From positions 1-46,917 of the forward strand of contig JACQFS010000059.1 in the NCBI GenBank assembly GCA_016199935.1: a stretch of DNA of 46,917 bases. The letters are read 5' to 3'. Position 1 is the first letter of the stretch. The number at the start of each line of letters is the position of its first letter. The translations under genes and the position numbers were made by a program. Shown here piece after piece: positions 14,528 to 36,180 of this stretch. A model generated the notes under the pieces. It searched no databases and was not told where the DNA came from. It worked only from the letters and a program-made list of their open reading frames with translations. This DNA is from Verrucomicrobiota bacterium. GTDB lineage: Bacteria; Verrucomicrobiota; Verrucomicrobiia; Limisphaerales; JACQFS01.

Positions 14528-15094
14528 ATGAAAGCCACCTTGGAATCCCAGACCATCCTGAACGTGACGGTTGCCTACGAGGATTTTCCGGCTTCCAAGC
14601 GCGTGCGGGAGATGCTGGACCAGTTCGGCAAATTTGTCGGCCCGGCGCAAACGCTGAGTTGCTGCTATTGGAAATTCGACATGCTGGCCATGCCGAAACT
14701 CGGCCGGCTTGCGGCGTTGGGCGCCACGGCAGGCGAGCTGATCGTGATTTCTTCCACCAACCCCGGCGAACCGGCCTTCGCAGTCAAACTTTGGATTCAA
14801 CAGTGCCTCGCAAATTCAGAATGCCGCGCGCGGATGTTAATTTCGCTTTGCGAGTCCCCCAACGGAGACGCGGAATTTTTTCCGGCCGTGAGCAGCTACT
14901 GCCGCGAAATTGCGGAGCGTGCCGGCATGGCGTTTCTGAGTGACCGGGACCTCCAACAGCCGGACGAGGTCGGGTTCGATTTCCGCGGCCTGCGCCATCT
15001 GGCCGGAGCGAATCGGTTCATCCGAAAGTCCGCGGCCGAGGTCAGGCAGCGGCGTCCGCCAACGGCCCGCCTCGCCAGCCGGAATGCGCAATGA
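14528..15094 (+). CDS. Unknown-function alpha/beta protein, paralogue A (W-K-F-D motif family)
   Basis: 188 residues from ATG 14528. It is clearly related to the protein at 27174-27725: both begin MKATL, and share V-T-[IV]-A-Y-E-D, W-K-F-D-[MV]-L, [DE]-x-[IV]-V-I-[AS]-S-T-N-P-[GS]-E-P, an L-[IV]-S-L-C-E strand and S-S-Y-C-R-x-I-A-x-R-x-G-M. Alternating strands and helices suggest a Rossmann-like or receiver-like fold, but I see no phosphorylation, nucleotide-binding or catalytic motif I can name. No signal peptide, so cytosolic. It stands at the left end of the trehalose island, with 152 bp before TreS. The specific C terminus is basic. I do not know its function. Confidence 0.7.
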   Translation: MKATLESQTILNVTVAYEDFPASKRVREMLDQFGKFVGPAQTLSCCYWKFDMLAMPKLGRLAALGATAGELIVISSTNPGEPAFAVKLWIQQCLANSECRARMLISLCESPNGDAEFFPAVSSYCREIAERAGMAFLSDRDLQQPDEVGFDFRGLRHLAGANRFIRKSAAEVRQRRPPTARLASRNAQ

Positions 15095-15246
15095 GTCATG
15101 CACGGGAACTTGTGCCGCCGCGTTGCCGTTCGCCGGTTCCAGTGTCATATTATTTCCGTGGCCGCGGACGCGGGCAATCGGGGATGCGTGCCGCGGGAGA
15201 ACATGGCCGGCTGACGGCTGGATTTCCGAACTCAACAAACGTCCAT

Positions 15247-18200
15247 ATGCCCAAGCATCACCAGTCCGCGAATGCGCCCCCTGATCCGCTTTGGTATAAG
15301 CAGGCGGTCATCTACCAGCTTCACGTGCGGGCTTTCCACGACAGCGACGCCAACGGCATCGGCGATTTTCGCGGGCTGACCGGCAAACTCGATTACCTTC
15401 AGGACCTGGGCGTGACGGCGCTGTGGCTGCTGCCGTTTTATCCCTCGCCGCTCAAAGACGAAGGCTATGACATCGCGGATTATTTTTCCGTCAACCCGGC
15501 CTACGGCACGCTGGCCGACTTCAAGGTGTTCCTGCGCGAGGCCCACGCGCGGCGGATGCGCGTGATCACCGAACTGGTGCTGAACCACACCTCCGACCAA
15601 CACGCGTGGTTCCAACGTGCGCGACGCGCGAAGTCGGGCAGTCGCTGGCGGGATTACTACGTGTGGAGCGACACACCGGAGAAATACCAGGGCACGCGCA
15701 TCATCTTCAAGGACACCGAACACTCGAATTGGACGTGGGATCCCGTGGCGAACGCCTATTACTGGCACCGCTTCTACTCGCACCAGCCGGACCTTAACTT
15801 CGATAATCCCGCCGTTCACAAGGAAATGTTCCGCGCGCTGGATTTCTGGATGGACCTCGGCGTGAGCGGCGTGCGGCTGGACGCCGTGCCTTATCTCTAC
15901 GAGCGTGAAGGCACGAGTTGCGAAGGTCTGCCCGAAACGCACGCGTTCCTCAAAACCCTTCGTCAGCATGTGGACGAAAAATACGGCGACCGGATGCTGC
16001 TCGCTGAAGCCAACCAATGGCCCGACGACGCGGTGGCTTACTTTGGAGGCGGACGCGGCGACGAGTGCCACATGGCGTTTCATTTTCCGTTGATGCCGCG
16101 ATTGTTCATGGGGCTGCGCATGGAGGACCGTGTTCCGATCGTTGACATTCTCCAGCAGACGCCGCCGCTGCCCGAGACCGCGCAGTGGGCGTTGTTCCTC
16201 CGCAACCACGACGAGCTGACGCTGGAAATGGTGACCGACGAGGAGCGCGACTACATGTATCGGATGTATGCGCACCTGCACCAGGCGCGGCTCAACCTCG
16301 GCATCCGCCGACGGCTCGCACCGCTGCTGGGCAACGACCGCCGGCGCATCGAGTTGCTCAATTCGCTCCTGTTCTCGCTGCCGGGCACGCCGGTCGTTTA
16401 CTACGGAGATGAAATCGGCCTGGGTGAAAACATCTACCTCGGAGACCGCAATGGCGTGCGCACGCCGATGCAGTGGAGCGCGGACAAGAACGCCGGCTTC
16501 TCCCGCGCGAATCCGCAGAGCCTGTATCTGCCCATCAATCTCGACCCGGAAAATCACTACGAGGCCGTGAACGTGGAAGTGCAGGAGCGCAATCCCCATT
16601 CGTTGCTGTGGTGGATGAAGCGCCTGATCGCGCTGCACAAGCGCTGGAAGGCCTTCGGTCTGGGCACGATGGAATTCCTGCATCCCGATAATCGCAAAAT
16701 CTTCGCGTGTGTCCGGCGGTATCAGGGCGAGTGCATCCTGGTGGTGGCAAATCTCTCCCGCTTCGTGCAGCCGGTGGAACTGGACCTCGCCGCCTTCCAG
16801 TCGCTGGTGCCGGTGGAGCTTTTCGGCCGCTCCGAATTCCCCGCCATCACCGACAAGCCCTATTTCCTGACACTCGGCCCGCACGCGTTTTTTTGGTTCT
16901 CGCTGGAAACAAAAGCGGCGGTGCAAACGGGTTCGGCCGCTTCGCCGGCCGGCGTGGAGGGGTTGCCATTGCTGAGCCTGGAGGAGGAGTGGGAGGAAAT
17001 ATTTCACGAGCGCAACCGCGACTCCTTCGAGTCGGCGCAGCAGCAGTGGCTGCCGTCATGCCGCTGGTTCGGCGGCAAGGCGAGGACGATCAAGGGCGTC
17101 CACGTCCGGGAAATCATCACGGTCCCGCTCGCGGAGGAGAAAATTTTCCTCACCTTTCTGCAGGTCGAATATTTCCAGACTGAGCCGGAGCTTTACGTCC
17201 TGCCGCTGGCCGCTGCGTTTGGTGAACAGGCCGACGCGCTTGGTCGCGACTGGCCGGCGCTGCCGCTTGCGCGACTGAAACTGAATCGTTCGAATCTGAG
17301 CGGCATCCTCTACGACGCGATCGGCAACAAGCCGTTCTGCCAGGAGTTGCTCGACATCATTTCCCGCCGGCGCAGCCTGGCCGGTGAGCGCGGCGAACTC
17401 CGGGCCAGCCACACCGCCGTCCTGCGCAAGCTGCGCATGGAAAGCGCGCTGGCTTTGGGGCCGTCGAACAGCAAGGCGGACCAGAGCAACTCCTCAGTGA
17501 TCTACGGCGACCGGCTGATCTTGAAATTTTTCCGCCGGATCGAGGTGGGCGTGAACCCCGACTTGGAGATCGGCCGTTTCCTGACGGTGCGGAAATTTCC
17601 GCACTCGCCGCCGGTCGCGGGCGCATTGGAATACCGCGGCCTCAACGACGAGGAGATCACCGTGGCGCTGCTTTCCTCCTTCACTGCAAAGTGCAAAACC
17701 GCTTGGGAACACACCCTCGATACGCTGGGCCGGTTCTACGAACGGGTGCAGGCATTGCCGGAGGAAAAGCGGACCGCACCCCGGCCCTCCGCATCCATCA
17801 CCAAACTGGCGGCCGGCGACTTGTCCGAAACGGCGAGGGACATGCTCGGCACCTACGCTGAAACCGCGCGCATCCTCGGCGAGCGCACCGCGGCCCTTCA
17901 CCTGGCGCTGGCGGCGGAGACGGAAGACCCGAACTTTGCGCCCGAACCTTTCACCCCGCATTCCCAGCGCGGACTCTTCCAAGCCTGGCGCAACCTCACG
18001 CGGCATAACTTCCAACTTCTCAGCCAGCGGCTCAAGGGACTGCCGCCGGAAGTTCAGGCGGATGCGGCCCGCGTGCTCGGTGCGGAGGGCGAGATTCTCA
18101 AACAGTTTCGCGCCATCTACGAACGGCGCATCAACGCCGTGCGCATCCGCGTGCATGGCGACTTTCACCTCGGCCAGGTGCTCTACGACGGCAGGGATTT

Positions 18201-18615
18201 CTTGATCACGGATTTCGAAGGCGAGCCGGGGCGCGCCCTGAGCGAGCGGCGCATCAAGCGGTCGGCGTTGGTGGACGTGGCCGGCCTGGTGCGGTCGTTC
18301 CACTACGCGGGCCACGCGGCGCTGTTGAAACAAGTTGAGCATGGCACGTTGTCGCCCGCGCAAGTCGCGCCGGTAAGCCAGTGGGCGCGGTTCTGGTGCC
18401 GGTGGGTCGGCGCAGTATTCTTCAAGGCTTACCGTCAGACGGCCGGCTTGGCGGCGTTCCTGCCGTCCAGCGACGACGATCTGCCCGGAATGATGGAGGC
18501 TTACCTGTTGCGAAAAGCCGTATACGAATTGGGCTACGAACTGAACAACCGTCCTGGTTGGGTAAGGATTCCGCTGGAGGGAATTTTGGAACTGCTGACT
18601 CCCGAGAAAGTTTGA
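15247..18615 (+). CDS. treS: Trehalose synthase fused to maltokinase (TreS-Mak)
   Basis: A 1122-residue bifunctional enzyme. Residues about 12-550 are a GH13 trehalose synthase that interconverts maltose and trehalose: WYKQAVIYQLHVRAFHDSD, the catalytic Asp in GVRLDAVPY, the acid/base Glu in LLAEANQWP and the third carboxylate in RNHDEL. From about residue 590 a maltokinase follows: N-terminal cap motif CRWFGGKARTI, then the kinase core with VHGDFHLGQVLYDGRDFL and TDFEGEP, which phosphorylates maltose to maltose-1-phosphate with ATP. In other bacteria maltose-1-phosphate feeds GlgE alpha-glucan synthesis, but no GlgE is visible here. ATG 15247 is chosen because homology begins just after it; the frame is open further upstream. 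GH57, TreY and TreZ genes follow closely. Confidence 0.94.
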   Translation: MPKHHQSANAPPDPLWYKQAVIYQLHVRAFHDSDANGIGDFRGLTGKLDYLQDLGVTALWLLPFYPSPLKDEGYDIADYFSVNPAYGTLADFKVFLREAHARRMRVITELVLNHTSDQHAWFQRARRAKSGSRWRDYYVWSDTPEKYQGTRIIFKDTEHSNWTWDPVANAYYWHRFYSHQPDLNFDNPAVHKEMFRALDFWMDLGVSGVRLDAVPYLYEREGTSCEGLPETHAFLKTLRQHVDEKYGDRMLLAEANQWPDDAVAYFGGGRGDECHMAFHFPLMPRLFMGLRMEDRVPIVDILQQTPPLPETAQWALFLRNHDELTLEMVTDEERDYMYRMYAHLHQARLNLGIRRRLAPLLGNDRRRIELLNSLLFSLPGTPVVYYGDEIGLGENIYLGDRNGVRTPMQWSADKNAGFSRANPQSLYLPINLDPENHYEAVNVEVQERNPHSLLWWMKRLIALHKRWKAFGLGTMEFLHPDNRKIFACVRRYQGECILVVANLSRFVQPVELDLAAFQSLVPVELFGRSEFPAITDKPYFLTLGPHAFFWFSLETKAAVQTGSAASPAGVEGLPLLSLEEEWEEIFHERNRDSFESAQQQWLPSCRWFGGKARTIKGVHVREIITVPLAEEKIFLTFLQVEYFQTEPELYVLPLAAAFGEQADALGRDWPALPLARLKLNRSNLSGILYDAIGNKPFCQELLDIISRRRSLAGERGELRASHTAVLRKLRMESALALGPSNSKADQSNSSVIYGDRLILKFFRRIEVGVNPDLEIGRFLTVRKFPHSPPVAGALEYRGLNDEEITVALLSSFTAKCKTAWEHTLDTLGRFYERVQALPEEKRTAPRPSASITKLAAGDLSETARDMLGTYAETARILGERTAALHLALAAETEDPNFAPEPFTPHSQRGLFQAWRNLTRHNFQLLSQRLKGLPPEVQADAARVLGAEGEILKQFRAIYERRINAVRIRVHGDFHLGQVLYDGRDFLITDFEGEPGRALSERRIKRSALVDVAGLVRSFHYAGHAALLKQVEHGTLSPAQVAPVSQWARFWCRWVGAVFFKAYRQTAGLAAFLPSSDDDLPGMMEAYLLRKAVYELGYELNNRPGWVRIPLEGILELLTPEKV

Positions 18616-18618
18616 ACG

Positions 18619-21057
18619 ATGGAACGTTTCATTTGCATTCACGGACATTTCTACCAGCCGCCGCGGGAGAACCCGTGGCTCGAAGCTGTCGAGTTGCAGG
18701 ACTCCGCGCTTCCTTATCACGACTGGAACGAGCGCATCGCAGCCGAGTGCTACGCGCCAAACGCCACCGCGCGCATTCTCGACGGCGACGGGCGCATCGA
18801 GCGCATCGTCAACAATTATTCCCGGATCAGTTTCAACTTCGGCCCCACGCTGCTGGCTTGGATGCAGGAACGCGCGCCGGACGTGCTGCACGCCATCGTC
18901 GAGGCCGACCGCGTGAGCCGGCAGATTTTTTCCGGCCACGGCTCCGCGCTCGCGCAGGCTTACAACCACATGATCCTGCCGCTCGCGAACCGCCGCGACA
19001 AACACACTCAGGTGCTTTGGGGCATCCGTGATTTCGAGCACCGCTTCGGCCGTATGCCCGAGGGCATGTGGCTGCCGGAAACCGCCGCCGATCTCGAATC
19101 GCTCGATGTGCTCGCCGAACTCGGCATCAAATTCACCATCCTTTCACCCTTTCAAGCCAACCGCTTCCGTCCGTTCAGCGGCGGGGAGTGGGAGGATGTG
19201 AATGGCGGGCACATTGATCCCACGCGGCCTTATCTCGTGCGCCTGCCGTCCGGGCGGAGCCTCGCGATTTTTTTCTACGACGGCCCGGTTTCAAAGGCCA
19301 TCGCGTTCGAGCAACTGCTGAAGGACGGGCCGCAGTTCGCCCGCCGCCTGACCGACGCGTTTGATGAAAAGCGCGGCTGGGATCAGCTCGTGAACATCGC
19401 GACCGACGGCGAGTCCTACGGCCATCATCATCGTTACGGCGACATGGCGCTGGCTTACGCGCTGCAATACGTCGAGGCGAACCAGCTCGCGCGCCTGACC
19501 AACTACGGCGAGTATCTGGAAAAGCATCCGCCCGCACACGAGGTTGAAATCCACCAGCCCAGCGCGTGGAGCTGCCCGCACGGCGTGGAGCGCTGGCACA
19601 GCGACTGCGGTTGCAACTCCGGCGGGCACGCGGGCTGGAATCAACAGTGGCGCCAGCCGTTGCGCGGCGCGCTCGACTGGCTGCGCGACCAGCTCGCACC
19701 GCGTTACGAAGCCAAGGCGCGCGATTTTCTGAAAGATCCGTGGGCCGCGCGCGACGACTACATCGCGGTCATCCACGACCGTTCCGCGGAAAACACCGCC
19801 CGCTTTTTCAGCCGCCACGCGACGCACGAACTGAGCGACGCCGAACAGGTCACCGCCCTGCGCCTGCTGGAAATGCAGCGCCATGCCATGCTCATGTTCA
19901 CGAGTTGCGGCTGGTTCTTCGATGAACTCTCCGGCCCTGAAACGGTGCAGGTCATCCAATACGCCGGCCGCGCCATCCAGCTCGCCAACGATTTGCTCGA
20001 CGAAAACCTGGAGCCGGGCTTCCTGAACACGCTCGGCTTCGCGAAGAGCAACCTGCGCGAGCATCGCGACGGGCGCGACATCTACGAAAAGTTCGTCAAG
20101 CCCGCCATCATGACGCGCGAGACCATCGGCGCGCACTACGCCATCAGTTCGCTCTTCGAATCGTATCCGGAACAGGCGCGCATTTACTCGTTCACCGTGC
20201 ATCAGGAGGACCGCCAGTTGTTTTCGGCCGGCCAGACACGCCTGGCCCTCGGGCGGATCCGCGTCGCCTTTGAAATCACCCGCAACTCCGACGTGGTCAC
20301 CTACGCCGTGCTCCACATGGGCGAGCACAACCTGAATTGCGGCGTGCGCTTCGATGGTGAACCGGAGGCCTACGCGGCGCTGGTGAACGAGGCCCGCGCG
20401 GCCTTCGAGCACGCCGATTTCGCGGAGATCATCCGGCTCATGGACCGTCATTTCGGCGGGGCCCATTACTCGCTGAAAAATCTCTTCCGAGATGAGCAGC
20501 GCCGGGTGCTCAACCAGATTCTCGCCGCCACGCGTGACGAAATTCACAACACCTACCGTCTCATCACCGACCGCTGCGCGCCGTTGATGCGCTTCCTCGC
20601 CGACCTTCACGCGCCCGCGCCCAAGGTTCTCGAAGTGGCGATGGAACTCGTCCTGAACGCCGAGCTGCGCCGGCAGTTTGAAAGCGACAGCCTGGACTTG
20701 GAGCGCGTGCGCAGCCTGCTCGCCGAGTGCGAGGCGACCAAGGTCGCGCTGGAGACGGACGTGCTCAACTACGCGCTGAAGGAGCACATGGATCGCTTGA
20801 GCGATCAGTTTCTCAAAAGGCCGGAGGATGAGGCGCTGTTGCAACGCCTCCTGAGCGCGGCGGACTTGATTCACAGCCTGCCGTTCGAGGTGAACCTGTG
20901 GAAGCCACAGAACACCTACTATGGCATGATCGCCACTTCGCTGTCGGAGATGCGCCAGCGTGCCCTTGACGGCGACGAAACTGCCAAGGCATGGGTGGAA
21001 AAGTTCCTCATGCTTGGCGAGCAACTTGGTTTTCTGGTGGAACGAAAAACGTCATGA
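18619..21057 (+). CDS. Glycoside hydrolase family 57 protein with DUF3536 domain
   Basis: 812 residues starting 3 bp after the TreS-Mak stop. The N terminus, ICIHGHFYQPPRENPWLE, is the classic GH57 opening with metal/sugar-binding His. GH57 motif 3 with the nucleophile Glu is GMWLPETAADLESLDVLAE. The motif with the acid/base Asp reads IATDGESYGHHHRYGDMALAYA. The region from about residue 350 on matches DUF3536, a C-terminal extension typical of bacterial GH57 proteins annotated as alpha-amylases. The expected role is hydrolysis or transfer on alpha-1,4-glucans in the cytosol; there is no signal peptide. Its place between TreS and TreY suggests it shapes the glucan used by TreY. Exact specificity is not established for this subfamily. 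Confidence 0.9.
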   Translation: MERFICIHGHFYQPPRENPWLEAVELQDSALPYHDWNERIAAECYAPNATARILDGDGRIERIVNNYSRISFNFGPTLLAWMQERAPDVLHAIVEADRVSRQIFSGHGSALAQAYNHMILPLANRRDKHTQVLWGIRDFEHRFGRMPEGMWLPETAADLESLDVLAELGIKFTILSPFQANRFRPFSGGEWEDVNGGHIDPTRPYLVRLPSGRSLAIFFYDGPVSKAIAFEQLLKDGPQFARRLTDAFDEKRGWDQLVNIATDGESYGHHHRYGDMALAYALQYVEANQLARLTNYGEYLEKHPPAHEVEIHQPSAWSCPHGVERWHSDCGCNSGGHAGWNQQWRQPLRGALDWLRDQLAPRYEAKARDFLKDPWAARDDYIAVIHDRSAENTARFFSRHATHELSDAEQVTALRLLEMQRHAMLMFTSCGWFFDELSGPETVQVIQYAGRAIQLANDLLDENLEPGFLNTLGFAKSNLREHRDGRDIYEKFVKPAIMTRETIGAHYAISSLFESYPEQARIYSFTVHQEDRQLFSAGQTRLALGRIRVAFEITRNSDVVTYAVLHMGEHNLNCGVRFDGEPEAYAALVNEARAAFEHADFAEIIRLMDRHFGGAHYSLKNLFRDEQRRVLNQILAATRDEIHNTYRLITDRCAPLMRFLADLHAPAPKVLEVAMELVLNAELRRQFESDSLDLERVRSLLAECEATKVALETDVLNYALKEHMDRLSDQFLKRPEDEALLQRLLSAADLIHSLPFEVNLWKPQNTYYGMIATSLSEMRQRALDGDETAKAWVEKFLMLGEQLGFLVERKTS

Positions 21058-21066
21058 CGCACCGCC

Positions 21067-23607
21067 ATGTCTCCCAGCATCCAGCCAGAAGCAGCGACAG
21101 AGCGGATTCCGCGGGCCACCTACCGGCTGCAATTGAACACCCGCTTTCGCCTGCGCGACGCGCTCGCGCTCGTGCCGTATCTGCATGAGCTGGGTGTCTC
21201 GCATATTTACACCTCGCCATTGTTCAAGGCCCATCCCGGCAGCGCGCACTGCTACGACGTTTGTGATTTCAGCCAACTGAATCCCGACCTGGGAACGGAA
21301 GCCGAACTCGCGGAGTTGGTGGCCGCTCTGCGCAGCCGCGACATGTGCCTCGTGGTGGACATCGTGCCAAATCACATGGGCATCGGCGGCCCGGAGAACG
21401 CGTGGTGGTGGGACGTTCTCACCCACGGCCCGGCGAGCCGGTTTGCCGGCTACTTCGACATTGATTGGAGCAGCCCCGATCCGCGGCTGAACGCGAAGGT
21501 GCTCATGCCCGTGCTCGCTGATCGCTACGACCGCGTGCTGCAGCGGCGCGAACTCCGGATCCATTTCGCGGACGGAAAATTCACGTTGCGTTACGGCGAA
21601 CACCGGTTCCCTCTCCGTCCGGAATCGCTCGCCTCGTTGAAGGTGTCGGTGCAAAACGCGGGCGCGTCCGGGGAAGACACGGAGAAGCTTCTGGAAGATT
21701 TGGACAGCAATCCCGAGGCGCTCGATGCGCTCGTTCAGCAGCAGCACTACCGTCTGACCTTCTGGCCCCACGGCGACAGCGAGTCGAACTACCGCCGCTT
21801 CTTCAACGTCTCCACGCTCGCCGCACTCCGCATTGAAGACGGCCACGTCTTCGCCGACATGCATGCACTGCTGCGGCGCTGGTTCGAAGCCGGTTTGGTT
21901 GACGGCGTGCGCGTTGATCATCCCGACGGCCTGCGGGATCCGGAGCAATATCTCCACCGGCTTCGAGACCTGGCACCGCACGCATGGATTGTGGTGGAAA
22001 AAATCCTGCAACCCGGCGAAACGCTGCCGGCCACCTGGCCGGTCGCGGGCACCACGGGCTACGACTTCCTGAACCGTGTGGGCGGGCTGTTCATCTCAAC
22101 GGCGGGCGAAAAGCCGCTGACCGATTTCTATGCCGAATTCACCCGCGAGCCGACCAGCTATCCAGCCGTCGCCCACGAGAAGAAGCGGCGCGTGCTGCGC
22201 GAATTGTTCGCTTCGGAAGTCCACCGCCTCACGACGCTCCTGCTTCAGCTCGCTGACCGGCACTGGCAGTTGCACGATTTCACATCCGACGAACTGCGCG
22301 AGGCGCTGTGTGAAGTGGCCGCCTGCTTCGGGGTTTATCGGACTTACGCCCAAGCTGAGACGCGAGTCGTCACACAGATCGACAACGCCCGCGTCCACGC
22401 CGCTGTCGCCTTCGCCCGCCAGCAACGGCCCGATCTCGACCCTGTGCTGTTCGCCAGCCTGCATGAACTGCTCCTCCTGCATTGGAGCGGCGAGGTGGAG
22501 GGCGAGTTTGTCGCGCGCTTCCAGCAACTGACCGGACCTGTGGCCGGCAAGGGCATCGAGGACACGGCGTTCTACTGCTTCAACCGGTTCGTTTCGCTGA
22601 ACGAGGTCGGCGGCGGTCCGGATCAGTTTGGTGTTTCCGTTGAAACCTTCCATGAGGTTTGCGTGGAGGCGCAGGCGCAACGGCCTCATTCGATGCTCGC
22701 GACTTCCACCCACGACACCAAGCGCAGCGAGGACGTGCGCGCGCGGTTGAGTCTGCTGTCGGAAATTCCCGACCGCTGGTGTGACGCCGTGCGTCGTTGG
22801 TCGGCGATGAACGAACGCCATCGTCGCGACGGCCGGCCCGATCGCAACGCAGAGTATTTTTTCTACCAGACCCTTGTCGGCGCCTGGCCACTGTCGCTGG
22901 ATCGCGCGCTGGCATACCTGGGAAAAGCCGTCAACGAGGCTAGCCAGCACACGACCTGGACGCATCGCGACGCCGCTTATGAGGATGCCATCCGCGCCTT
23001 CGTTACGGGCACGCTGGGTGATCCGGAGTTCACGGGAGACTTGGAGCAGTTCCTCGCGCCGCTCGCGGCGCCGGCGCAGATCAACTCGCTCGCGCAAACG
23101 CTGCTCAAGCTCACCGCGCCCGGCGTGCCGGACATTTATCAGGGCGACGAACTGTGGGATTTCAGCCTCGTGGATCCCGACAATCGCCGGCCCGTGGACT
23201 TCGGATTGCGCTGCCGCCTTTTGTCCGGGCTGCCAAGCCTGAAAGCCGAAGCCGCGTGGCGACGCCGCAGCGAGGGTGTGCCGAAACTTTTCCTGATCCA
23301 GCGCGCGCTCAACCTTCGTCGACGAAATCCGGACTGGTTCGCACGGGGCAACTATGAGCCGATCCTCGCGCGTGGAAGGAAGGCGGACCACGTCGTCGCG
23401 TTCAGTCGCGCCGGACACGCGGTCACGGTGGTGCCGCGATTGATCCTCGGCGTGAAAGGCGACTGGGCCGACACCGCGCTGGATTTGCTGCCCGGCGAGT
23501 GGCGCAACGAATTCACGGACGAGCATCTCCGAAGCGCATCCGTCAACCTCGCGGAACTATTCCAGAAATTTCCCGTCGCACTGCTGACTCGAAAGGAGGA
23601 CGGCTGA
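21067..23607 (+). CDS. treY: Maltooligosyl trehalose synthase
   Basis: 846 residues, a GH13 enzyme that isomerises the reducing-end alpha-1,4 bond of malto-oligosaccharides to an alpha,alpha-1,1 bond. The opening RATYRLQLNTRFRLRDA and VPYLHELGVSHIYTSPLFKA are TreY-specific, as are DGVRVDHPDGLRDPEQYL (catalytic Asp), IVVEKILQPGE (Glu) and STHDTKRSEDVRARL. The C-terminal part contains PGVPDIYQGDELWDFSLVD. Length fits the family, slightly shorter than actinobacterial forms. It starts 9 bp after the GH57 stop and its stop overlaps the treZ start (TGATG at 23605-23609), so these genes form one transcription unit. No regulatory site was seen inside. Confidence 0.96.
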   Translation: MSPSIQPEAATERIPRATYRLQLNTRFRLRDALALVPYLHELGVSHIYTSPLFKAHPGSAHCYDVCDFSQLNPDLGTEAELAELVAALRSRDMCLVVDIVPNHMGIGGPENAWWWDVLTHGPASRFAGYFDIDWSSPDPRLNAKVLMPVLADRYDRVLQRRELRIHFADGKFTLRYGEHRFPLRPESLASLKVSVQNAGASGEDTEKLLEDLDSNPEALDALVQQQHYRLTFWPHGDSESNYRRFFNVSTLAALRIEDGHVFADMHALLRRWFEAGLVDGVRVDHPDGLRDPEQYLHRLRDLAPHAWIVVEKILQPGETLPATWPVAGTTGYDFLNRVGGLFISTAGEKPLTDFYAEFTREPTSYPAVAHEKKRRVLRELFASEVHRLTTLLLQLADRHWQLHDFTSDELREALCEVAACFGVYRTYAQAETRVVTQIDNARVHAAVAFARQQRPDLDPVLFASLHELLLLHWSGEVEGEFVARFQQLTGPVAGKGIEDTAFYCFNRFVSLNEVGGGPDQFGVSVETFHEVCVEAQAQRPHSMLATSTHDTKRSEDVRARLSLLSEIPDRWCDAVRRWSAMNERHRRDGRPDRNAEYFFYQTLVGAWPLSLDRALAYLGKAVNEASQHTTWTHRDAAYEDAIRAFVTGTLGDPEFTGDLEQFLAPLAAPAQINSLAQTLLKLTAPGVPDIYQGDELWDFSLVDPDNRRPVDFGLRCRLLSGLPSLKAEAAWRRRSEGVPKLFLIQRALNLRRRNPDWFARGNYEPILARGRKADHVVAFSRAGHAVTVVPRLILGVKGDWADTALDLLPGEWRNEFTDEHLRSASVNLAELFQKFPVALLTRKEDG

Positions 23608-25394
23608 TGCACACGTTCCGCGTCTGGGCACCCGTGGCCGAGAAGGTCGCCGTGCAGGTCGGCCGGAAACAATTCGCGATGGAACGCGAGCCGGAGGGCT
23701 GGTGGATCGCGAAAGTCGCCACCGCGCGACCGGGCAGCGACTACGGATTTCTCGTGGACGGCGCGGGGCCGTGGCCCGACCCGCGCTCGCCGTGGCAGCC
23801 GCGCGGGGTAAACGGTTTGTCGCGCGTGGTGGATCACGGCGCGTTCCGATGGAGGGATGCGGGCTGGCTTGCACCCCCGCTTTCATCGGCGGTGATCTAC
23901 GAGTTGCACATCGGCACGTTCACGCCGGCGGGCACCTTTGCGTCAGCCATCCCGAAGCTCGATCACCTCGTCAAACTCGGCGTCACGCATGTTGAGTTGA
24001 TGCCGGTGAACGAATTTTCCGGCGTGCGCGGCTGGGGTTACGATGGCGTGGATTTGTTCGCGCCGCATCATGCCTATGGCGGACCGGAAGGATTAAAGCG
24101 GTTCGTGGATGCCTGCCACGCGCGGCGGCTCGCGGTGCTGCTGGACGTGGTTTACAACCACCTCGGGCCTTCGGGCAATTACCTTGGCAAGTTCGGCCCC
24201 TATCTCAACCCGCTCAACAAGTGTTACGCCACCGTCTGGGGACCAGCGCTCAATTTGGACGGCGTGGAGAGCGACGAAGTGCGCCGCTTCCTTTGCGACA
24301 ACGCGCTGATGTGGCTGCGCGATTGTCATTTCGACGGTCTGCGCCTCGACGCGGTCCACGCGATCGGCGACACGTCCGCCAAGCATTTCATGGATCAACT
24401 CGGCACCGAGGTGAAAAGGCTCGAAGCCCAGCTTGGCCGCCGCCTCGTGCTGATCGCGGAGAGCGACCTCAACGATCCACGTCTGCTCCGGCCCCGCGTG
24501 CGCGGCGGGTTCGCGCTCGATGCGCAATGGAGCGACGACTTCCATCACGCGCTGCACACGGTGCTCACCGGTGAATGCCACGGCTACTACGCCGACTTCG
24601 GCACGCTGGCCGATCTTGCGAAGGCCATCCGGCAGGCGTGGGTTTACGACGGCCGCTACTCCATTCATCGCCGGCGAAATCACGGGCACCCGCCGGGCAG
24701 GCTGAGCGGCCATCGATTCCTGGCCTACCTGCAAAACCACGATCAAGTCGGCAACCGCGCTCGCGGCGAGCGCAGCAGCAGCCTCTTGGGCGCGGGCCGC
24801 CTCAAAGTGGGTGCAGCGCTGGTGTTCACATCTCCCTTTGTCCCCATGCTTTTCGCCGGGGAAGAATGGGGCGCTTCGACGCCTTTTCTTTACTTCACCG
24901 ATCATCAAGAGCCGTCGCTGGCGAAAGCCGTCAGCAAGGGTCGCCGCCGCGAGTTCGCGGTGTTTAGCTGGAGGGCGAAGGACATTCCCGACCCGCAGGC
25001 GCGCGCCACATTTCTTCACTCCAAGTTGAACTGGCGGGAGCTCAAACAGTCGCCACACGCCGAACTGCTCGACTGGCATCGCCGGCTCATCCGCCTGCGT
25101 CGCACTGAACCTGCGCTGAACGACGGCTGCCTTGACCGCGTCACCACGCGCTTCGACGAGCGCGAGCGCTGGCTGGTGGTCGAGCGCGGCCCGATCAGTG
25201 TGGCGTGCAACCTGGCCGACCGCCCCCGGCGCGTTCCGTTGCGCCACGGCAGGCATGCAAAGCTGCTGGCTTCGGTGGAAAACATCGAACCAACGAATGC
25301 GTGTGTCGCCCTGCCTCCGGATTCGGTGGTCGTGCTAAAGCGCATCACCGCGAAAACACCAGCCGATGGGATTCGTTCATCACGCCGAAGATGA
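23607..25394 (+). CDS. treZ: Malto-oligosyltrehalose trehalohydrolase
   Basis: 595 residues; cleaves trehalose from the maltooligosyl-trehalose made by TreY. It starts at ATG 23607 within the TreY stop. An N-terminal E-set/CBM48 domain (TFRVWAPVAEKVAVQVG) precedes the GH13 barrel: YELHIGTFTPAGTF, HVELMPVNEFSGVRGWGYDG, the catalytic Asp in DGLRLDAVHAIGD, Glu in VLIAESDLNDPRL and the later QNHDQVGNRARGER. The WGYDGVDLFAPHHAYGGPEGL motif is typical of TreZ. No obvious terminator follows. Together with TreY this is a complete route from linear glucan to trehalose; a debranching enzyme (TreX/GlgX) is not present in the window. Confidence 0.95.
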   Translation: MHTFRVWAPVAEKVAVQVGRKQFAMEREPEGWWIAKVATARPGSDYGFLVDGAGPWPDPRSPWQPRGVNGLSRVVDHGAFRWRDAGWLAPPLSSAVIYELHIGTFTPAGTFASAIPKLDHLVKLGVTHVELMPVNEFSGVRGWGYDGVDLFAPHHAYGGPEGLKRFVDACHARRLAVLLDVVYNHLGPSGNYLGKFGPYLNPLNKCYATVWGPALNLDGVESDEVRRFLCDNALMWLRDCHFDGLRLDAVHAIGDTSAKHFMDQLGTEVKRLEAQLGRRLVLIAESDLNDPRLLRPRVRGGFALDAQWSDDFHHALHTVLTGECHGYYADFGTLADLAKAIRQAWVYDGRYSIHRRRNHGHPPGRLSGHRFLAYLQNHDQVGNRARGERSSSLLGAGRLKVGAALVFTSPFVPMLFAGEEWGASTPFLYFTDHQEPSLAKAVSKGRRREFAVFSWRAKDIPDPQARATFLHSKLNWRELKQSPHAELLDWHRRLIRLRRTEPALNDGCLDRVTTRFDERERWLVVERGPISVACNLADRPRRVPLRHGRHAKLLASVENIEPTNACVALPPDSVVVLKRITAKTPADGIRSSRRR

Positions 25395-27939: not shown

Positions 27940-28632
27940 TCAACTTTTGGATGAGACGTTCGCCTCGACCCAGCGGATGGCGAAGTGGACCAGCTCGGGG
28001 CCGCTCTTCAGCTTGAGCTTCGCCTTGATGTGAGCGCGGTGCGCGTCCACCGTTTTTGGACTCAGGTGGAGGTGGCGCGCGATTTCAGGGCCTGAGCGTC
28101 CCCGGCCGATCAACTGGAGGATTTCAAACTCGCGGTCGCTCAAGCGGTCAATCGGCAGGCGGATTTGCGCGGCCCGGCCGCCGACGCAGGTTTCCAGCAA
28201 CCGCGCGGCCATGCTCTCGCTCAAAAAGACGTGCCCTTCGAGCACCTGGCGGATGGCCTGCAACATGCGGGCCGGCCCCTCCTGTTTCATGATGTAGCCA
28301 CGCGCGCCGGCGCGCAGCACGCGCTCGGCGTAAAGCGATTCGTCGTGCATCGAGATGACCAGCACCGCCAGATCCCGGCACACCGCGCGCAAATCCTTGA
28401 TCAACTCCAGGCCGCTCTTGGAGGGCAGGCTCACGTCCATCAATACCAGGTCCGGTTTGAGCTGTGGAATCTGCGCCAGCGCCTCGCCGGCGTCGTCGGC
28501 CTCGCCGCAGACCTTGAGGTCGCGTTCCCGTGTGAGGAGGTGGATCAGGCCCTCACGGAAGATCGGGTGATCGTCCACGATGTAAATACTTTGCGGGCGC
28601 GCTTTGCGAGTGGTGGCTTTTTGTGGGGGCAT
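27940..28632 (-). CDS. NarL/FixJ-family response regulator
   Basis: 230 residues. Receiver domain at about 14-130: IYIVDDHPIFREGL with the acidic pair, phospho-acceptor Asp in PDLVLMDVSLPSKSG, Ser in LVISMHDESLYAERV and Lys in GYIMKQEG. LuxR-type HTH at about 160-225: RLSDREFEILQLIGRGRSGPEIARHLHLSPKTVDAHRAHI. It should be phosphorylated by the adjacent multi-PAS kinase and act as a DNA-binding regulator. ATG 28632 has an ideal ribosome binding site (AAGGAG) inside the end of the kinase gene, whose stop is only 2 bp upstream, so the pair is translationally coupled. Target genes unknown. Confidence 0.95.
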   Translation of the reverse strand: MPPQKATTRKARPQSIYIVDDHPIFREGLIHLLTRERDLKVCGEADDAGEALAQIPQLKPDLVLMDVSLPSKSGLELIKDLRAVCRDLAVLVISMHDESLYAERVLRAGARGYIMKQEGPARMLQAIRQVLEGHVFLSESMAARLLETCVGGRAAQIRLPIDRLSDREFEILQLIGRGRSGPEIARHLHLSPKTVDAHRAHIKAKLKLKSGPELVHFAIRWVEANVSSKS

Positions 28633-28634
28633 GG

Positions 28635-31600
28635 TCAACTCCTTGGATGGCCGGCGGCGGTTCCCCGCCGGACTGTGCAGATCACCGAGGTTCCGCGTTC
28701 GGGCCGCCGCTGCACCACCACGGTTCCGCCGATCATGCCGGCCCGGTATTCCATGATGCGCAGGCCCATCCCGGTGCGTGAGATTCCGAAGGCGCTGATG
28801 CCGACGCCCTCGTCGTGAATGCCGAGGTTGATGCTCCGCGACGTGGCGGAGAGGCCGATTTCGATCCGGTTCGTGTGGCCATGTTTGATGGCATTGGTGA
28901 CGGCCTCCTGAGCAATGCGATAGAGGTGCGTCGCCACGTGGTTGTCGCGGACAAGCACCTCGCGCCGGCATTTGAAAATGCATCTGACGCGGAAAATGTC
29001 GCGGGTGCGTGCAGCCAGTGCGTGAAGCGCGGACATAAGCCCGTGCGGCTCGGCTTCGACCGGATGGAGTCCGCGCGCGAGACTGCGCGTCTGCGCGACG
29101 GCATCGTTGAGCAGTCGCGAAACCTTCGCAGCGTCGCGGGCCAGCGATGCGGGAAATCCGGAGAGATCTTTTTGCAAGCTCTCGCTCAGGCAGGCGATGC
29201 CAGCGAGTTGCTGCCCCAACCCGTCGTGCAAGTCCTGTGCGATGCGGCGTTGCTCACGGTCGCTGATTTGGAGGATTTCTGATTGCAGCCGCCTGCGGTG
29301 AGTGATGTCCGTCACGATGCCGCCGACGGCGTAGATTCGGTTGTCCGCGTCGAAGAGCGGGAACTTCGTGACGATGCTGGTGTGCGGGCCGTCGTCGTGC
29401 ATGGCCACCTCGTCAAAGACCAGCGGGCGGCGGGTCCGCGCCACGACCGCGTCGTTGGCGCGGAACGCTGCGGCCTGATCGGCGGGAAAGATTTCTTCGT
29501 CCAGCTTGCCGACGGTGCGTTTCAACGGCAGGCCAAACTCCTCCTCGAAGCGCCGGTTGAAATGCAGGTAGCGGCCCTGCGTGTCCTTGAGAAAAATCAT
29601 CGCCGGGCTGTGGTCCATGATCGCCTGAAGCCGGGCCTCACTTTCGCGCAGCGCCTTCTCGGCCTTTTTGCGGTCGGTGATGTCCCGGATCGCGCTGCAC
29701 ACCAGCACGCCCTCCGGGGTGCGCAGCGGGCTGAGGCTGATCTCGATTGGAAACTCGCTGCCGTCCTTGCGCTGGCCGAACAGTTCGAGCCCCATGCCCA
29801 TCGGCCGCGCGTGCGGGTTGGCGAAGAAATCCCCGCGATGGCCGACGTGACGGCGGCGGAAGCGTTCGGGCATGAGCCGTTCCAGCGGCCGGCCCTGCAA
29901 TTCCTTCCGGCGATAGCCAAAGAGCCGCTCGGTCTGCGAATTCACGAGCACGATTTCACCGCGCTGGTCCACGATCACGATGCCGTCGGGCGCGGACTCG
30001 ACCAACCCGCGGAACCTGGTCTCGCTCGCCCGGAGCGCCTCCTCGGCCACCTTGCGGGCAGTGATGTCGCGCGCGATGTGCGAGAAACCGGTCACGCGCC
30101 CGCGGGCGTCCTTGATCGGCGAGAGGGTGAGGAAAACATCAAGACGCTTTCCGTTCTTGCGCAGGCGGACGGTTTCAAACGGTTCCGCATTCTTCCCGCG
30201 CCGGATGATTTTGAAAGCCCGCTCGAACTCCTCACGGCGATCCGGCGGAATCAGGCGCAGCAGTGAACGGCCGATCATTTCCCCGGCGCGCCAGCCATAG
30301 ACCCGCTCCGCGCCTTTGTTCCAACTGAGGATGGTCAGGTCGAGCTTGACGCTCAGAATCGGCTCGGACGATGACTCGACGATGCCGGCCAGTTGGTCGC
30401 GCGCGAGGCTCGTGCGCCGTTGGGCGCGGATGGCGATGCGCAGGGCGAGGTTGCTGCGGGTCAGTTTGGAAGTGCGGTCCCAGACGTGCTGTTCCAGCTC
30501 GCGGTTGATCTTGGCCAGTTGGTCGCGTGTGCGGCGCAAGGCCGCCTCCGCCAGCTTGCGCTCCGTGATGTCAATGCACGAGCCGATGTAGCCGAGGAAC
30601 TCATGGGGTGCGGCGAATCGCGGCGTGCCGTTGTCCAGGATCCAGCGGTATTCGCCGTCGTGGCGCTTGAGCCGGTATTCCATCTCGAACTCCTTCCTCG
30701 CATCAAAAGAGGAAACGTAAATCTCCAGGCAGCGTTGCAGGTCGTCGGGATGGACGCCTTCGGCCCAGCCGTTGCCCAGCTCCTGTTCGAGCGTGCGCCC
30801 AGTGAATTCCAGCCATGACTTGTTGAAATAGGTGCACAGCTTGTCCGTGCCGGACATCCAGATGAGGACCGGCGCGGACTCGGCCAGGACGCGGAAGCGC
30901 GCTTCGCTCTCGCGCAGTGCCGCCTCTGCCTGCTTGCGCTCGGTGATGTCGGCGATGCACGCCACCCATCCGATCACCTTGCCCCGCCCGTCCCGCTCGG
31001 GCCGGTAGCCGACCCGCATGAAGCGCCGGCCGGTCTGCTGATAGGGAATTTCGATCTCGTAGTCCACCGGCTCTCCCTTGAGCACGCGCTCGACGTAGGG
31101 ACGGATCGTTTCAAAGGCCTCCTTGCCCATGATTTCCGGGATGAGCCGGCCCTCGATCTGTTCGGGAGGCAGGCCGAGGAATTCCGCGCAGGCGCGGTTC
31201 ACAAATTTGTAGCGCAGGTCGCGGCCACACTGGACGAGCATCACCGGCGCGGTGTCGGCGATGAGCTGGAGCTGGGCTTCGTGGGCGCGCAGCGCCTCCT
31301 CGGCCTGCTGGCGCGCGGTGATGTCGTAACTGAGCACGGCCAGACCGCGGACCTCGCCGTTCGGCCGCACGAGCGGCACGCGGATGACATCGAAGAAGCG
31401 GTCCGTCCCGTCGGACTTGGGGATGACCTCATCGTGCCGGCTCATCCGGCCGCTTTCCAAAACTGCCTGGTCCGCGCGCGCGCGCATTCGGAGCGAGGGA
31501 CGGTGAAAGGGAGAGACGGCCGCCAGCTCGGAGTTGCTCTTCGTCCAGTAATCACGCCCGGTCAGGTCGAACAATTCCAGCGCGGCGGAGTTGGCCATTT

Positions 31601-32231
31601 GCCAGCGCCCCGCGGCATCGTTGAACTGGATCGGGTGCGGCGAGGCTTCGATGAGCGCCCGCAGATTTTCCTCGCCCGCCCGCAGCGCCGCCTCGGTGTG
31701 CTTGGGTCCGCTGCTGTCCATCAGGGCGAGTTGAAAATGCTGGGTGCCGGGCATCGCCACGCAGGCCAGCCCCACCGGCACATCCCCGCGCAGCCGCACC
31801 TCGCTCGAAACCGCCGCGCGCGAACGCTGGCAACGCCGCAACTGATCCAGGAATTTCGGCGCATCCGCGGGCGCCAGCAGGAAGACGAACCGCCGCTGGA
31901 GCAGTCGGGATTTTCCACCGTCCAACATCGCGGTCGCGGCGCGGTTCAGGTCGAGGATCACCCCACGCGCATCGAGCGTGACCAGGCCGACGGGAGCGGA
32001 GTCATGGAGCCTGGCCTGCGCGGCGCGGGAGGCTTCGAGCTGCTGGCAGGCGTCGCGCAGCTCGCGGTTCTCCAGCTCCAGTTGCGAGATGCGCATCTCG
32101 AGTTCGCCGCACCGGGCCTCCAGCCCCGGCGGCGGGTTGCCATTGGAATTCGTCCGCGCCGCCTTGGAACGCGCGGGCCGCGCCGGCTTTGCCGACGGGC
32201 GCGCTCGCGTGGCGGTGCGGGCGGAGTTCAT
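28635..32231 (-). CDS. Multi-PAS sensor histidine kinase (NarL-type, HisKA_3)
   Basis: 1198 residues, no membrane segment, so a cytosolic sensor. After a basic N terminus and a short coiled coil ([23 protein letters not shown]) I count seven PAS-like modules, roughly at residues 70-175, 186-310, 318-435, 440-555, 605-720, 725-845 and 850-970, recognisable by repeats of ESEARFR/LIxxxP and the connecting DITxRKxAEEALR. The kinase part has the HisKA_3 phosphorylation motif [19 protein letters not shown] and an HATPase with [19 protein letters not shown] and [16 protein letters not shown]. It overlaps the upstream CheB-CheR gene by 4 bp (ATGA) and is followed 2 bp later by the regulator. What each PAS senses cannot be told. 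Confidence 0.95.
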
Positions 32232-35200
32232 CGTTTGCCTGGTGGCGTCACATCCTGGATGGCCAGCAGGACGAGGTCGCGTTTGCTCTCGGCTGTTTCA
32301 AGCCGGTGCGCGTTGAGCAGCATCTTGCGCCGGCCAATCGTCGGGAAGGTGTGTGTCACCTCGAAATCGGAGATGCGCGTTTCCTTCGGCAGCACTTCTT
32401 CGAGCAGCACGCGCAGCCGCGGGATGTTCCACTGGCGATTGCCGAGTTCGTAGATGAATTTGCCCTCGGTCTCATGGGGAGTGACGCGGAATTTTTCGTA
32501 GAATGCGTGGTTCGCCTTGACCACGCGCAACTGGCGGTCGAGCGCGACGAACGGCTCCCACAAGGTGTCGCTGACCTGTTCGAGGGCGCGCTTGAGCTCG
32601 TCAATGTCCACGAGCACCAGCACGGCGCCATCAATCTTGTTCTCCTTGGTGCGGTAGGGCCGGATGCGCAGCGAATACCAGCGGCCCTGGTGGTCGCGCA
32701 CCTCGCACTCCTTCAGGTGCAAAGTGTCGAGCACCTCGGCGATCATCGCCTCCAAACCGGGTGCGTCCAGGCTGGTCTTGATGTCGTTGAGACTGCGCCC
32801 GACATCGGTGGGAATGAGGTTGAAAAACTTCTGGGCCGCCGGCGTGAAGCGGCGCACCACCAGGCTGGCGTCCACCATCACGACGGGAATCTGGACGCTG
32901 GCCAGGAGGTTGAGCAGGTCGTTGTTGACGCGGCCGGATTCGATGTTGGCGTTCTGAAGCTCCTCGTTGACCGTGGCCAGCTCCTCGTTGGTGGACTGCA
33001 TCTCCTCCTTGGCGGTTTCCAATTCCTCGTTGGTGCTTTGCAGCTCCTCGTTGCTGGACTGGATTTCCTCGTTGGCGGATTTGAGCTCCTCGTTGGTGGC
33101 CTCCTGCTCCTCGATGATCGCCTGCAACGATTCGCGGGTGGAATCGAGTTCCTCGCGCAGACGGACGACCTCCGCCTCGGCGCGCGAGGACCGCGGGTGG
33201 CCGTCGCGACCGCGAACTGATTTCGAAGCGCTGGGCTCGGGCGGCTCCAGCAACCGCCCCTCCTCGAACAGCACCGCCAGGAACGGCTCTTTGGCGGGCG
33301 GCACTTTGAAAGGGACGACTTGCAGCTTGAGCAGGCAGCGCCGGTCCTTCGTTTTGACCCACGCGATTTCCTTGTGCACCGGCTCGCGCCCCTTGAGCGC
33401 CTGGGCGATGGCGGAACGCAGGTGCATCACCAGCTCGGAGCGCACCAGCTTGAGCAGGTTGAGGCTCGCGGCGCCGGGGGCGTGTTCGAGATACGGGGCC
33501 GTGTGGCCGCGGAACTGGAGCACCTGCATTTTGCCATCAATGACCACGCCACTCGGCCCGCAAAGCTGCAGCAGGACGCGGTCGGCCACTTTCTCGATGT
33601 TCGGCAGCACCGGCGGCGGGGGAGGTGGCTCGGCGGACGGAGCCGCGATTTCCTCGGCGAACACCTTGGGGCTGAAGGTGACCTCGGGCTGCGTGTGCGG
33701 CGAAGTCTTGGCGAAAATCCGCTGGTGCCTGTCCACCTGCGTGAACAGCTCGGACAATCCGGCGATACCCTCGGCCGGACTGAGCAGCAGGTAGCCGGTC
33801 GGCTTGAGCGCGTAATGGAAAATGGGGATCACCTGCTTTTGCAGTTCGGTGCCGAAATAAATCAGCACGTTCTGGCAGCAGATCAAATCGAGCTGGGAAA
33901 ACGGCGGGTCCGCGCCGAGGTTCTGCCGCGCGAACACGCACAGGTCGCGGATCGCCTTGCTGATGCGGTAACCCTCCTCGACCGGCGTGAAGAACCGTCG
34001 CAGCCGCGCCGCGGAAACATCCTGCGCGATGTTGGCGCGATAGACCCCCGCGCGCGCCCTGGCGATCGCCGCCTCGCTGATGTCCGTGCCGAAAATCTGC
34101 ACCGGATGGTCCTTCGCGTGGCCGCCCAAAAATTCCACCAGTGCGATCGCCATCGAATAAACCTCCTCGCCCGAGGCGCACCCCGGCACCCAGATGCGGA
34201 TCGGCTGTCCGCGCGGCCGGCCCTTGACCAGCGCCGGAAAGATTTTTTTGGCGAGCAGTTGATACGACTTCGGCTCGCGGAAAAACCGCGTCACGGTGAT
34301 CAGCGCGTCGTCAAACAGCGCCTCAACCTCGCCGGTGTGCGATTGGAGGAAGCGGGCGTATTCCTCCACCCGGCCGATGCGGTGAACCGCCATGCGGCGC
34401 AGGATCCGGCGCTTGAGCGTGGTCTGCTTGTAGCTCGAGAAATCCACACCGCGCGCCGAACGCAGCAGCGCGTAGATTTTTCCCAAGGCCCCGTTCGCCG
34501 GCCCGTCCGACTCCACGAACTTCTCCGCCGCCGTTGCCGCGAGGTAGGGATGGTGTGGTAGCTTCGCCAGTTCCCGCGCCATTTTCTCGGGCGGCAAAAC
34601 GAAATCCACGCAGCCCGACGCGATGGCGCTGCGCGGCATGCCGTCATATTTGGCCGTCGCGGGATCATGCGCGAAGGTGAGGCCGTCCGCGCCCTTGATC
34701 GCCTCCATGCCCAGCGTGCCGTCCGAGCCGTTGCCGGAAAAAATCATGCCCACGGCATTCCTGCCCTGGTCCTCGGCGAGCGAGCGGAGGAAAAAATCCA
34801 CCGGCATCGGCGGCACGTCGGACTGCCGGCGGGAGGTGAGCTTCAAATGGCCGCCGGCGATGGCGAGATTCTTGTTCGGCGGGATCACATAGACGTGGTC
34901 CGGCTCCACCGTCACGGACTGCCGGACCTCGACGACCGGCAGGCGCGTGATGCGCGAGAGCAGCTCGGTGAGCTTGCTTTCGTGCTTCGGGTCCAAGTGC
35001 TGGATCAGCACGTAGGCCATGCCCGAATCCACCGGCAGTTCCTCGAGGAATTTGGTGAACGATTCGTAGCCGCCCGCCGACGCTCCGATGCCGACGATGG
35101 GAAAGGCTTTCCGCACCTTATCCGCCATTGGCTTCCCCCCGCGTCCCAGCGGGGAAGCGCCTGTCCGTGGCCCGGTTTTTGCCCGCAACCTCGGCGCGCG

Positions 35201-35269
35201 CAGGGTGGCGGTTTTCCGTCGAGGAGAAGGTGACGCCACCTTGAATCGGAGCTTGGATTTTTTTTTCAT
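32228..35269 (-). CDS. CheB-CheR-PAS fusion protein (methylesterase/methyltransferase hybrid)
   Basis: About 1013 residues from ATG 35269; a GTG at 35278 is possible. Basic N-terminal tail, then a CheB methylesterase domain without a receiver: Ser in [11 protein letters not shown], His in [13 protein letters not shown], Asp in [12 protein letters not shown] CheR methyltransferase follows at about 260-520, with SAM motif [30 protein letters not shown] and [10 protein letters not shown] long coiled coil (repeats of the form NEELxSxNEEI, about 700-770) leads to two PAS domains (about 785-890, 905-1010). Such fusions occur in sensory operons with few or no chemoreceptors; no MCP, CheA or CheW gene is in the window. 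First gene of the operon with kinase and regulator. It may pass a methylation-state or PAS signal to the kinase, which is inference. Confidence 0.94.
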
Positions 35270-35405
35270 ACGTTCCACGCGTTTCGTTGCTCAACTCACG
35301 GCGCGAGCACACCCCCTTAAATCCCTGGTGTGACCTCGGACGAAATGCCCATTCTAAAACTGACACAGCCTCGCAGCATTCGTCCGGATTGATATGGGGC
35401 TGAAC

Positions 35406-35729
35406 TTAAGCTTGCTTCACCTGCGGGAGCAAGCCCCGACGGAGCCTGGGAGACACCACGGACGCAGACGGGTCAAGGGTGCAACGCGTGAGCATGACCG
35501 GAGTGGTTTCCGTGATCAGCCTGAACTGCGCTTCCGAATTCGACCCCGCTTCTTTTGGCGACTTGGAACTCCCGTTGCCATTGTTGAGAGCGACCCGTTT
35601 GCGGGAAGCACCGACGATCCTCGTCCGCGCCGGGGATTCCCTGGCCACCGCACGAGATCCGTTTTTCGCGACTTCCACCTCGGGTGGGGCGACTCGGGAA
35701 CGCTTCGGATTGATCCTCCGGTTGCTCAT
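35406..35729 (-). pseudogene. Remnant: N-terminal start of a PAS histidine kinase
   Basis: An open frame of 107 codons beginning MSNRRINPKRSRVAPPEVEV. It runs for about 75 residues as a basic linker and then enters a PAS opening, EAQFRLITETTPVMLTRCTLD, like the PAS starts in the neighbouring kinase. It then loses all similarity and stops. The rest of the sensor is missing, so I read it as a truncated relic of a second kinase. It is on the same strand just upstream of the CheB-CheR operon. Confidence 0.5.
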
Positions 35730-35930
35730 GGCTCGAAAAACTTGTCTCAAGGTAACTCTTTTCCCTCCGCCGGGGCAAGTCAGAGAATTGAACCAACCCC
35801 CGGACACCGGACGCACAGATAGCTCCTTCCGCAAGTTCGATACGAAGTGTTTGAGGTGCTCGAACTACCAACTGCTCTCGTGGTCGAGGTCGACGACGAG
35901 GCAGGTGAAGTCCGACTGCTGCTTGTCTGC

Positions 35931-36180
35931 AAGTGATGTTGCCAACAAGAGCTCGTCCCAGCGCGTTAGCTGCCTTCAGCGTCCCGAGTGTTTCTGACAT
36001 TGCTTCGGAAATGACTTCCAACTTCCGACGACCGGCTTCCTTGGGCGCTCCAAGTTGCAGAAGCTGGGTTTCCAGTTCGTCGATCCGATGGCTGCTCCCG
36101 ATGAGTTTATCGAGCATCACATCACGTTCCCTTTCCAACCGTTCGATGATGTAGTCCTTGCCCCGGTTGGCGATTCGCAA
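35931..36180 (-). pseudogene. Remnant coding fragment, coiled-coil rich
   Basis: Starts MRIANRGKDYIIERLERERD and is protein-like for about 83 residues, with heptad-style spacing (LIGSSHRIDELETQLLQLGA), then runs into sequence of no recognisable protein character. The frame stays open to 35473 but without conserved composition. It may be the 5' end of a gene cut by a deletion. No family recognised. Confidence 0.35.

Follow-up and report, generated by a model that had tools for sequence, protein, structure and literature searches.

A CheB-CheR-PAS fusion protein with a candidate methyl-accepting coil, encoded with a histidine kinase and a NarL-type regulator in a genome without chemoreceptors

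A three-gene operon of a Verrucomicrobiota bacterium (Limisphaerales) encodes a protein in which CheB methylesterase and CheR methyltransferase domains are fused to PAS domains and a long acidic helix, followed by a PAS-rich histidine kinase and a NarL-type response regulator, in a genome from which the usual partners of chemotactic methylation are absent. The sequence of the helix suggests that it resembles a methyl-accepting substrate, which is the new and testable point made here and one that the original prediction for this stretch of DNA had missed. We tentatively propose, with slightly less than even confidence, that the operon is a self-contained, methylation-tuned two-component sensor in which the CheR and CheB domains of the fusion would act on their own coil and so tune the linked kinase. 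The region analysed, referred to here as the window, comprises the 46,917 nucleotides of contig JACQFS010000059.1 (assembly GCA_016199935.1).

All three genes lie on the minus strand in the order fusion, kinase, regulator. The fusion gene (32228..35269) begins at an ATG at 35269, giving 1013 aa, or alternatively at a GTG at 35278, giving 1016 aa, and ends with a stop at 32228 that shares an ATGA overlap with the start of the kinase gene (28635..32231; 1198 aa). In the kinase, seven separate stretches each give a PAS match of their own, and they are followed by a HisKA_3 domain with its acceptor histidine (H1002) and a HATPase_c domain. The regulator (27940..28632) starts with an ATG 2 bp past the TGA of the kinase, with an AAGGAG sequence just upstream inside the kinase end, and it consists of a Response_reg receiver with its acceptor aspartate (D66) and a GerE/LuxR DNA-binding domain. 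The cheBR, kinase and regulator genes are translationally coupled, and the coordinates together with the Pfam assignments confirm the single operon, joined by the ATGA overlap and the 2-bp gap, that had been predicted. A scan for sigma-70 promoters found none.

Both methylation enzymes are well preserved in the fusion. The methylesterase domain (34568..35095, residues 62-237; PF01339, E=6.6e-55) retains an intact Ser-His-Asp triad at S67, H94 and D186 (1016-aa numbering, aligned to 1chd), and the triad is invariant in two sets of homologues (62/62 and 46/46). The N-terminal receiver that gates canonical CheB was not found, there being no Response_reg match in the CheB-CheR-PAS protein in Pfam, which bears out the earlier remark that this CheB lacks its usual receiver; the separate CheB proteins of relatives (loci L163 and L164) do have one. 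The methyltransferase is made up of a CheR_N alpha domain (34337..34477, residues 268-314; PF03705) and a SAM-binding CheR domain (33728..34294, residues 329-517; PF01739), and alignment to 1af7, 1bc5 and 5ftw recovers the conserved motif residues with a single deviation, R469Q. As an arginine occupies position 469 in 61 of 62 homologues, the CheR activity of this particular copy could be altered. The alpha-domain arginines R290, R291 and R295 are invariant, as is R294 save for one lysine in 46 sequences. In Salmonella CheR the matching basic helix region contacts the methylation helix of the receptor. The invariance of the CheB triad and of the key CheR residues over 46-62 diverse homologues implies that selection maintains the catalytic function across the family.

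The partners with which such enzymes would ordinarily work were sought in the whole 5.03-Mb assembly, which is 97.7% complete, and control genomes gave matches in every search. The genome contains no MCPsignal domain (PF00015, the MCP hairpin tip, which is also absent from the fusion itself), no CheW domain and no flagellar rod protein (Flg_bb_rod); as CheA carries a CheW domain, there is also no normal CheA. This fusion contains both the only CheB_methylest domain of the genome and its only strong CheR domain, and one further CheR-like match is weak and below the cut-off. The original prediction had found no receptor, CheA or CheW in the window and had proposed a genome-wide search for MCP genes, with action on ordinary chemoreceptors and control of a motility regulon as what would refute it; the absence of chemotaxis partners holds genome-wide, beyond the window, and the receptor side of that refuting condition is contradicted, no ordinary chemoreceptors being found. 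With the catalytic residues intact, the predicted non-chemotactic two-component pathway linked to methylation enzymes is thus supported for this genome. Among 167 genomes of the order that are at least 90% complete, in which the fusion was detected by its coil, 56 carry it, and 21 of these 56 carriers lack MCPs. The fusion is nonetheless commoner in MCP-containing genomes of the order (odds ratio 2.96, p=0.0017), so that some copies may work with MCPs. Elsewhere, in Mesorhizobium sp. AR07 (L074, G080; 8.7 Mb, contig titled complete chromosome), a gene for a CheB-CheR-PAS-HWE kinase is present while MCPsignal gives no match at all. The opposite extreme to the present genome is a relative, G033, whose 4.5 Mb contain 31 MCPsignal matches along with five CheB-CheR-PAS loci that bear the coil.

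The C-terminal half of the fusion contains a PAS-like domain (33251..33598), recognised by its PAS topology in the AF2 predicted structure and without a Pfam match, a PAS_10 domain (32600..32914, residues 789-893) and a PAS_4 domain (32246..32557, residues 908-1011). Between the PAS-like domain and the PAS_10/PAS_4 pair, the AF2 model, a monomer with a pTM of 0.51, has one continuous helix of 93 residues (32897..33175; residues 699-791 in AF2 numbering) with a central mean pLDDT of ~91. This helix, the candidate methylation-site array, is strongly acidic (net -19) and holds seven consecutive EExx[AST] motifs at an exact 7-residue spacing (residues 723-770), six of them consecutive also in the stricter form EExx[AST][AST], compared with at most two consecutive repeats in 20 MCPs of relatives. 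The pattern is like that of MCP sites, with alanine mostly replaced by serine or threonine. A repeat scan of 732 other neighbouring ORFs returned only further CheB-CheR-PAS pieces as top scorers. The strict EExx[AST][AST] run has a median of only 2 across the family, the residue after S/T often being V, L or I, and on reading the sequences the hydrophobic register around the EE pair is shifted by ~1 residue relative to Tsr.

Across the family this helix is the best conserved part of the protein. In a set of 62 sequences the coil core (residues 737-771) is the highest-scoring 35-residue window, above both enzymes (0.86); as that set had partly been gathered with a coil peptide, conservation was recomputed on 46 sequences, of which 29 had been retrieved with only the CheB-CheR part and 17 through similarity over the full length, and the result held in this less coil-biased set (0.81 for the coil window, with 0.72 as the highest value outside it). 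Resolved by heptad position, conservation is 0.97 at f and g (the two glutamates), 0.90 at e (Asn) and 0.86 at c (Ser/Thr), compared with 0.77 and 0.57 at the core positions a and d. The surface is therefore more conserved than the core (p=0.001), which is inverted for a coiled coil. The length of the coil is also constrained, being only 73, 80 or 87 residues, and its indels (L036, L040, L041, L172, L187, L188, L191, L193-L195) are of exactly one heptad, or 7 residues. Insertions and deletions in the cytoplasmic helices of MCPs likewise occur in heptad steps. The coil and the methyltransferase travel together: in one search CheR was in frame with all 36 intact strong coil matches, the other matches being one broken remnant of 90 residues and three weak ones without CheR, and the coil was present in all 28 readable fusions found by CheB-CheR alone. 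CheB-CheR without the coil was rejected as a control, since both loci considered for it turned out to encode CheB and CheR as ordinary, separate proteins, in one case beside fliF. Weaker heptads of the NEEL type are also seen in the coils of ordinary hybrid kinases without CheR.

CheR/CheB glutamate methylation is the textbook bacterial short-term memory, bound up with arrays of chemoreceptors. Where MCPs are missing from the genome, the obvious target left to these enzymes is the acidic helix with Glu pairs that belongs to their own polypeptide, and the repeat pattern, the association of strong coil matches with CheR and the conserved CheR arginines together suggest methylation of the coil. 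In the scheme that we propose, the PAS domains of the fusion would sense a signal, perhaps a ligand or a redox state, the SAM-dependent CheR domain would add methyl groups to glutamates of its own 93-residue coil, and the receiver-less CheB would strip them from the same residues, the modification taking place in cis or across a dimer. By analogy with MCPs, methylation would neutralise the charge of the acidic coil, alter its packing and so set the gain of the HisKA_3 kinase with its seven PAS domains, which would in turn phosphorylate the NarL-type regulator. That the coil is the substrate is suggested by conservation, and phosphotransfer between these two partners is expected since HisKA_3 kinases and NarL-type regulators are a standard pairing. 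A single soluble protein would thus unite the methylation helix of a chemoreceptor with CheR and CheB, in the absence of MCP, CheW and CheA. The weaker NEEL coils of hybrid kinases lacking CheR, the register shift against Tsr and the hydrophobic residue that often follows S/T all count against this self-methylation model, as do the higher frequency of the gene in MCP-containing genomes of the order, the R469Q change in this copy and the modest pTM of the monomer model.

The most serious alternative, which we regard as possible though clearly less probable than not, is that the conserved coil serves only in signalling or dimerisation and as a docking helix for the kinase, with CheR and CheB modifying another cytosolic protein in trans, for example the partner kinase, again outside chemotaxis. 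Conserved surface residues can also mark a docking surface, in almost every case a kinase lies next to the fusion or forms part of it, and somewhat similar coils are found in hybrid kinases without CheR. Set against this, only CheR fusions give strong matches to the coil, and the partner kinases vary in type (HisKA, HisKA_3 or HWE) while the coil hardly changes, as would be expected of a substrate for the unvarying CheR more than of a docking site for a partner that varies. The partner kinase of this operon was itself considered as the bearer of the EExx[AST] repeat and rejected, since none was found in it.

It is also conceivable that the CheR and CheB domains are sensory or structural modules, reading for instance the SAM/SAH level, so that catalysis is irrelevant and the protein is a PAS co-sensor for the kinase. 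The R469Q substitution in this copy, the unusual fusion and the PAS-rich context speak for such a role, which we nevertheless consider unlikely given how strictly the CheB triad and key CheR residues are kept among the homologues. Least probable of all, and very improbable indeed, is ordinary adaptation in chemotaxis, with the fusion acting on MCPs encoded elsewhere in the genome. Intact catalytic residues in both enzymes and the enrichment of the gene in MCP-bearing genomes of the order would agree with it, but for this genome it is largely refuted, since so complete an assembly gives no match to MCPsignal, to CheW or to the flagellar rod, and the order contains 20 other well-assembled carriers that are free of MCPs, with more elsewhere, including Mesorhizobium sp. 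AR07.

The CheB-CheR-PAS family is widespread, known to databases and essentially uncharacterised. Homologues occur in Verrucomicrobia/Lentisphaerae, Nitrospirota, Methylococcales, Alphaproteobacteria, Elusimicrobia, Bacteroidetes, Cyanobacteria and Deinococcus, as well as on plasmids, some of them predicted to be conjugative. No NCBIfam model above its cut-off covers the whole fusion, and no paper on its function was found in the open-licence literature. In many lineages a PAS histidine kinase is either encoded by the next gene, which frequently overlaps by exactly 4 bases, or fused at the C-terminus, so the gene order is not due to chance; the complete order of cheBR, HisKA_3 kinase and NarL regulator recurs in loci L033, L042-L045, L152 and L162, among others, of which L152 and L162 come from MCP-free genomes. 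Extending the self-methylation model to the family, and with a little more reserve than for the operon itself, we suggest that CheB-CheR-PAS proteins may be phylum-spanning soluble sensors that methylate themselves, the glutamate heptads of the coil serving as methyl-accepting sites and providing a reversible covalent memory for ordinary histidine kinases in bacteria that lack chemoreceptors. If methylation of the coil in cis does control ordinary histidine kinases, then adaptation by methylation would be a general signalling device, and a widespread self-contained chemical memory outside chemotaxis is suggested. The coil allows a specific and cheap question to be asked, namely which glutamates bear methyl esters. 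Several plasmid records (L197-L203, L206) are annotated as 'chemotaxis protein CheB' or 'CheR family methyltransferase', often with the GO term chemotaxis, though they are CheB-CheR-PAS(-kinase) fusions, and the first of these labels would mislead for receptor-free genomes.

One close parallel is the Tsr/Tar MCP/CheR/CheB system of E. coli, which shares the long helix with Glu pairs followed by small residues every 7 residues, the basic alpha-domain helix of CheR, the CheB triad and an output to a histidine kinase. In the present case all methylation parts are in one soluble protein, there is no MCPsignal tip, CheW or CheA, CheB is without a receiver, the kinases associated with CheB-CheR-PAS are of HisKA_3, HWE or HisKA type, and the output is a transcription factor. 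Roles for CheR outside flagellar taxis, with varied two-component outputs, have been described for alternative cellular function chemosensory pathways and CheR-TPR proteins (PMC3447774), but those pathways retain the chemoreceptors and CheA/CheW that are absent here. The same CheB plus CheR input architecture is found in Azospirillum hybrid kinases, for which CheB and MeTRC input domains are listed in a table (Table 3) with no function given (PMC4618731); in alphaproteobacterial relatives of the fusion the kinase (HWE_HK) is fused at the C-terminus, whereas here a HisKA_3 kinase with seven PAS domains is encoded by a gene of its own, coupled in translation. The kinase and regulator have the domain types of NarX/NarQ-NarL systems, from which the operon differs in its seven PAS domains as input and in having CheB-CheR-PAS as its first gene. 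Foldseek matched the PAS-long helix-PAS-PAS layout to PpsR (PDB 4hh2; PAS, long Q-linker helix, PAS, PAS) over 486 columns, at 13% identity and with poor overall superposition; PpsR lacks methylation enzymes and has a DNA-binding output.

The original prediction had also tied the operon to a neighbouring stress island, and this part was not upheld. The window does contain a trehalose/alpha-glucan cluster (15091-25394, plus strand) with genes for TreS-maltokinase, GH57/DUF3536, TreY-like and TreZ-like proteins, and a ThuA-domain gene (10389-11360, minus strand), yet none of the TreS-Mak, GH57, TreY, TreZ or ThuA genes has a homologue near CheB-CheR-PAS genes in ~90 related loci, and a conserved stress-island link was therefore rejected. 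As an uncontrolled observation, some proteobacterial plasmid copies of cheBR (L198, L199, L202, L203, L204) lie near other stress or osmolyte genes, namely those for Mn catalase, hemerythrin, amylo-glucosidase, YsnF/AvaK, CsbD and ectoine synthesis. Just upstream of the operon (35406-36180, minus strand) are overlapping ORFs without a Pfam match, one of which has the sequence 'FRLITETTPVMLTRC', resembling the start of a PAS domain, and perhaps represents a decayed sensor gene. Elsewhere in the window (114-3762, plus strand), an aromatic amino acid lyase gene is followed by one for a fused FAD monooxygenase/halogenase-like and O-methyltransferase protein, possibly a small secondary-metabolite cluster.
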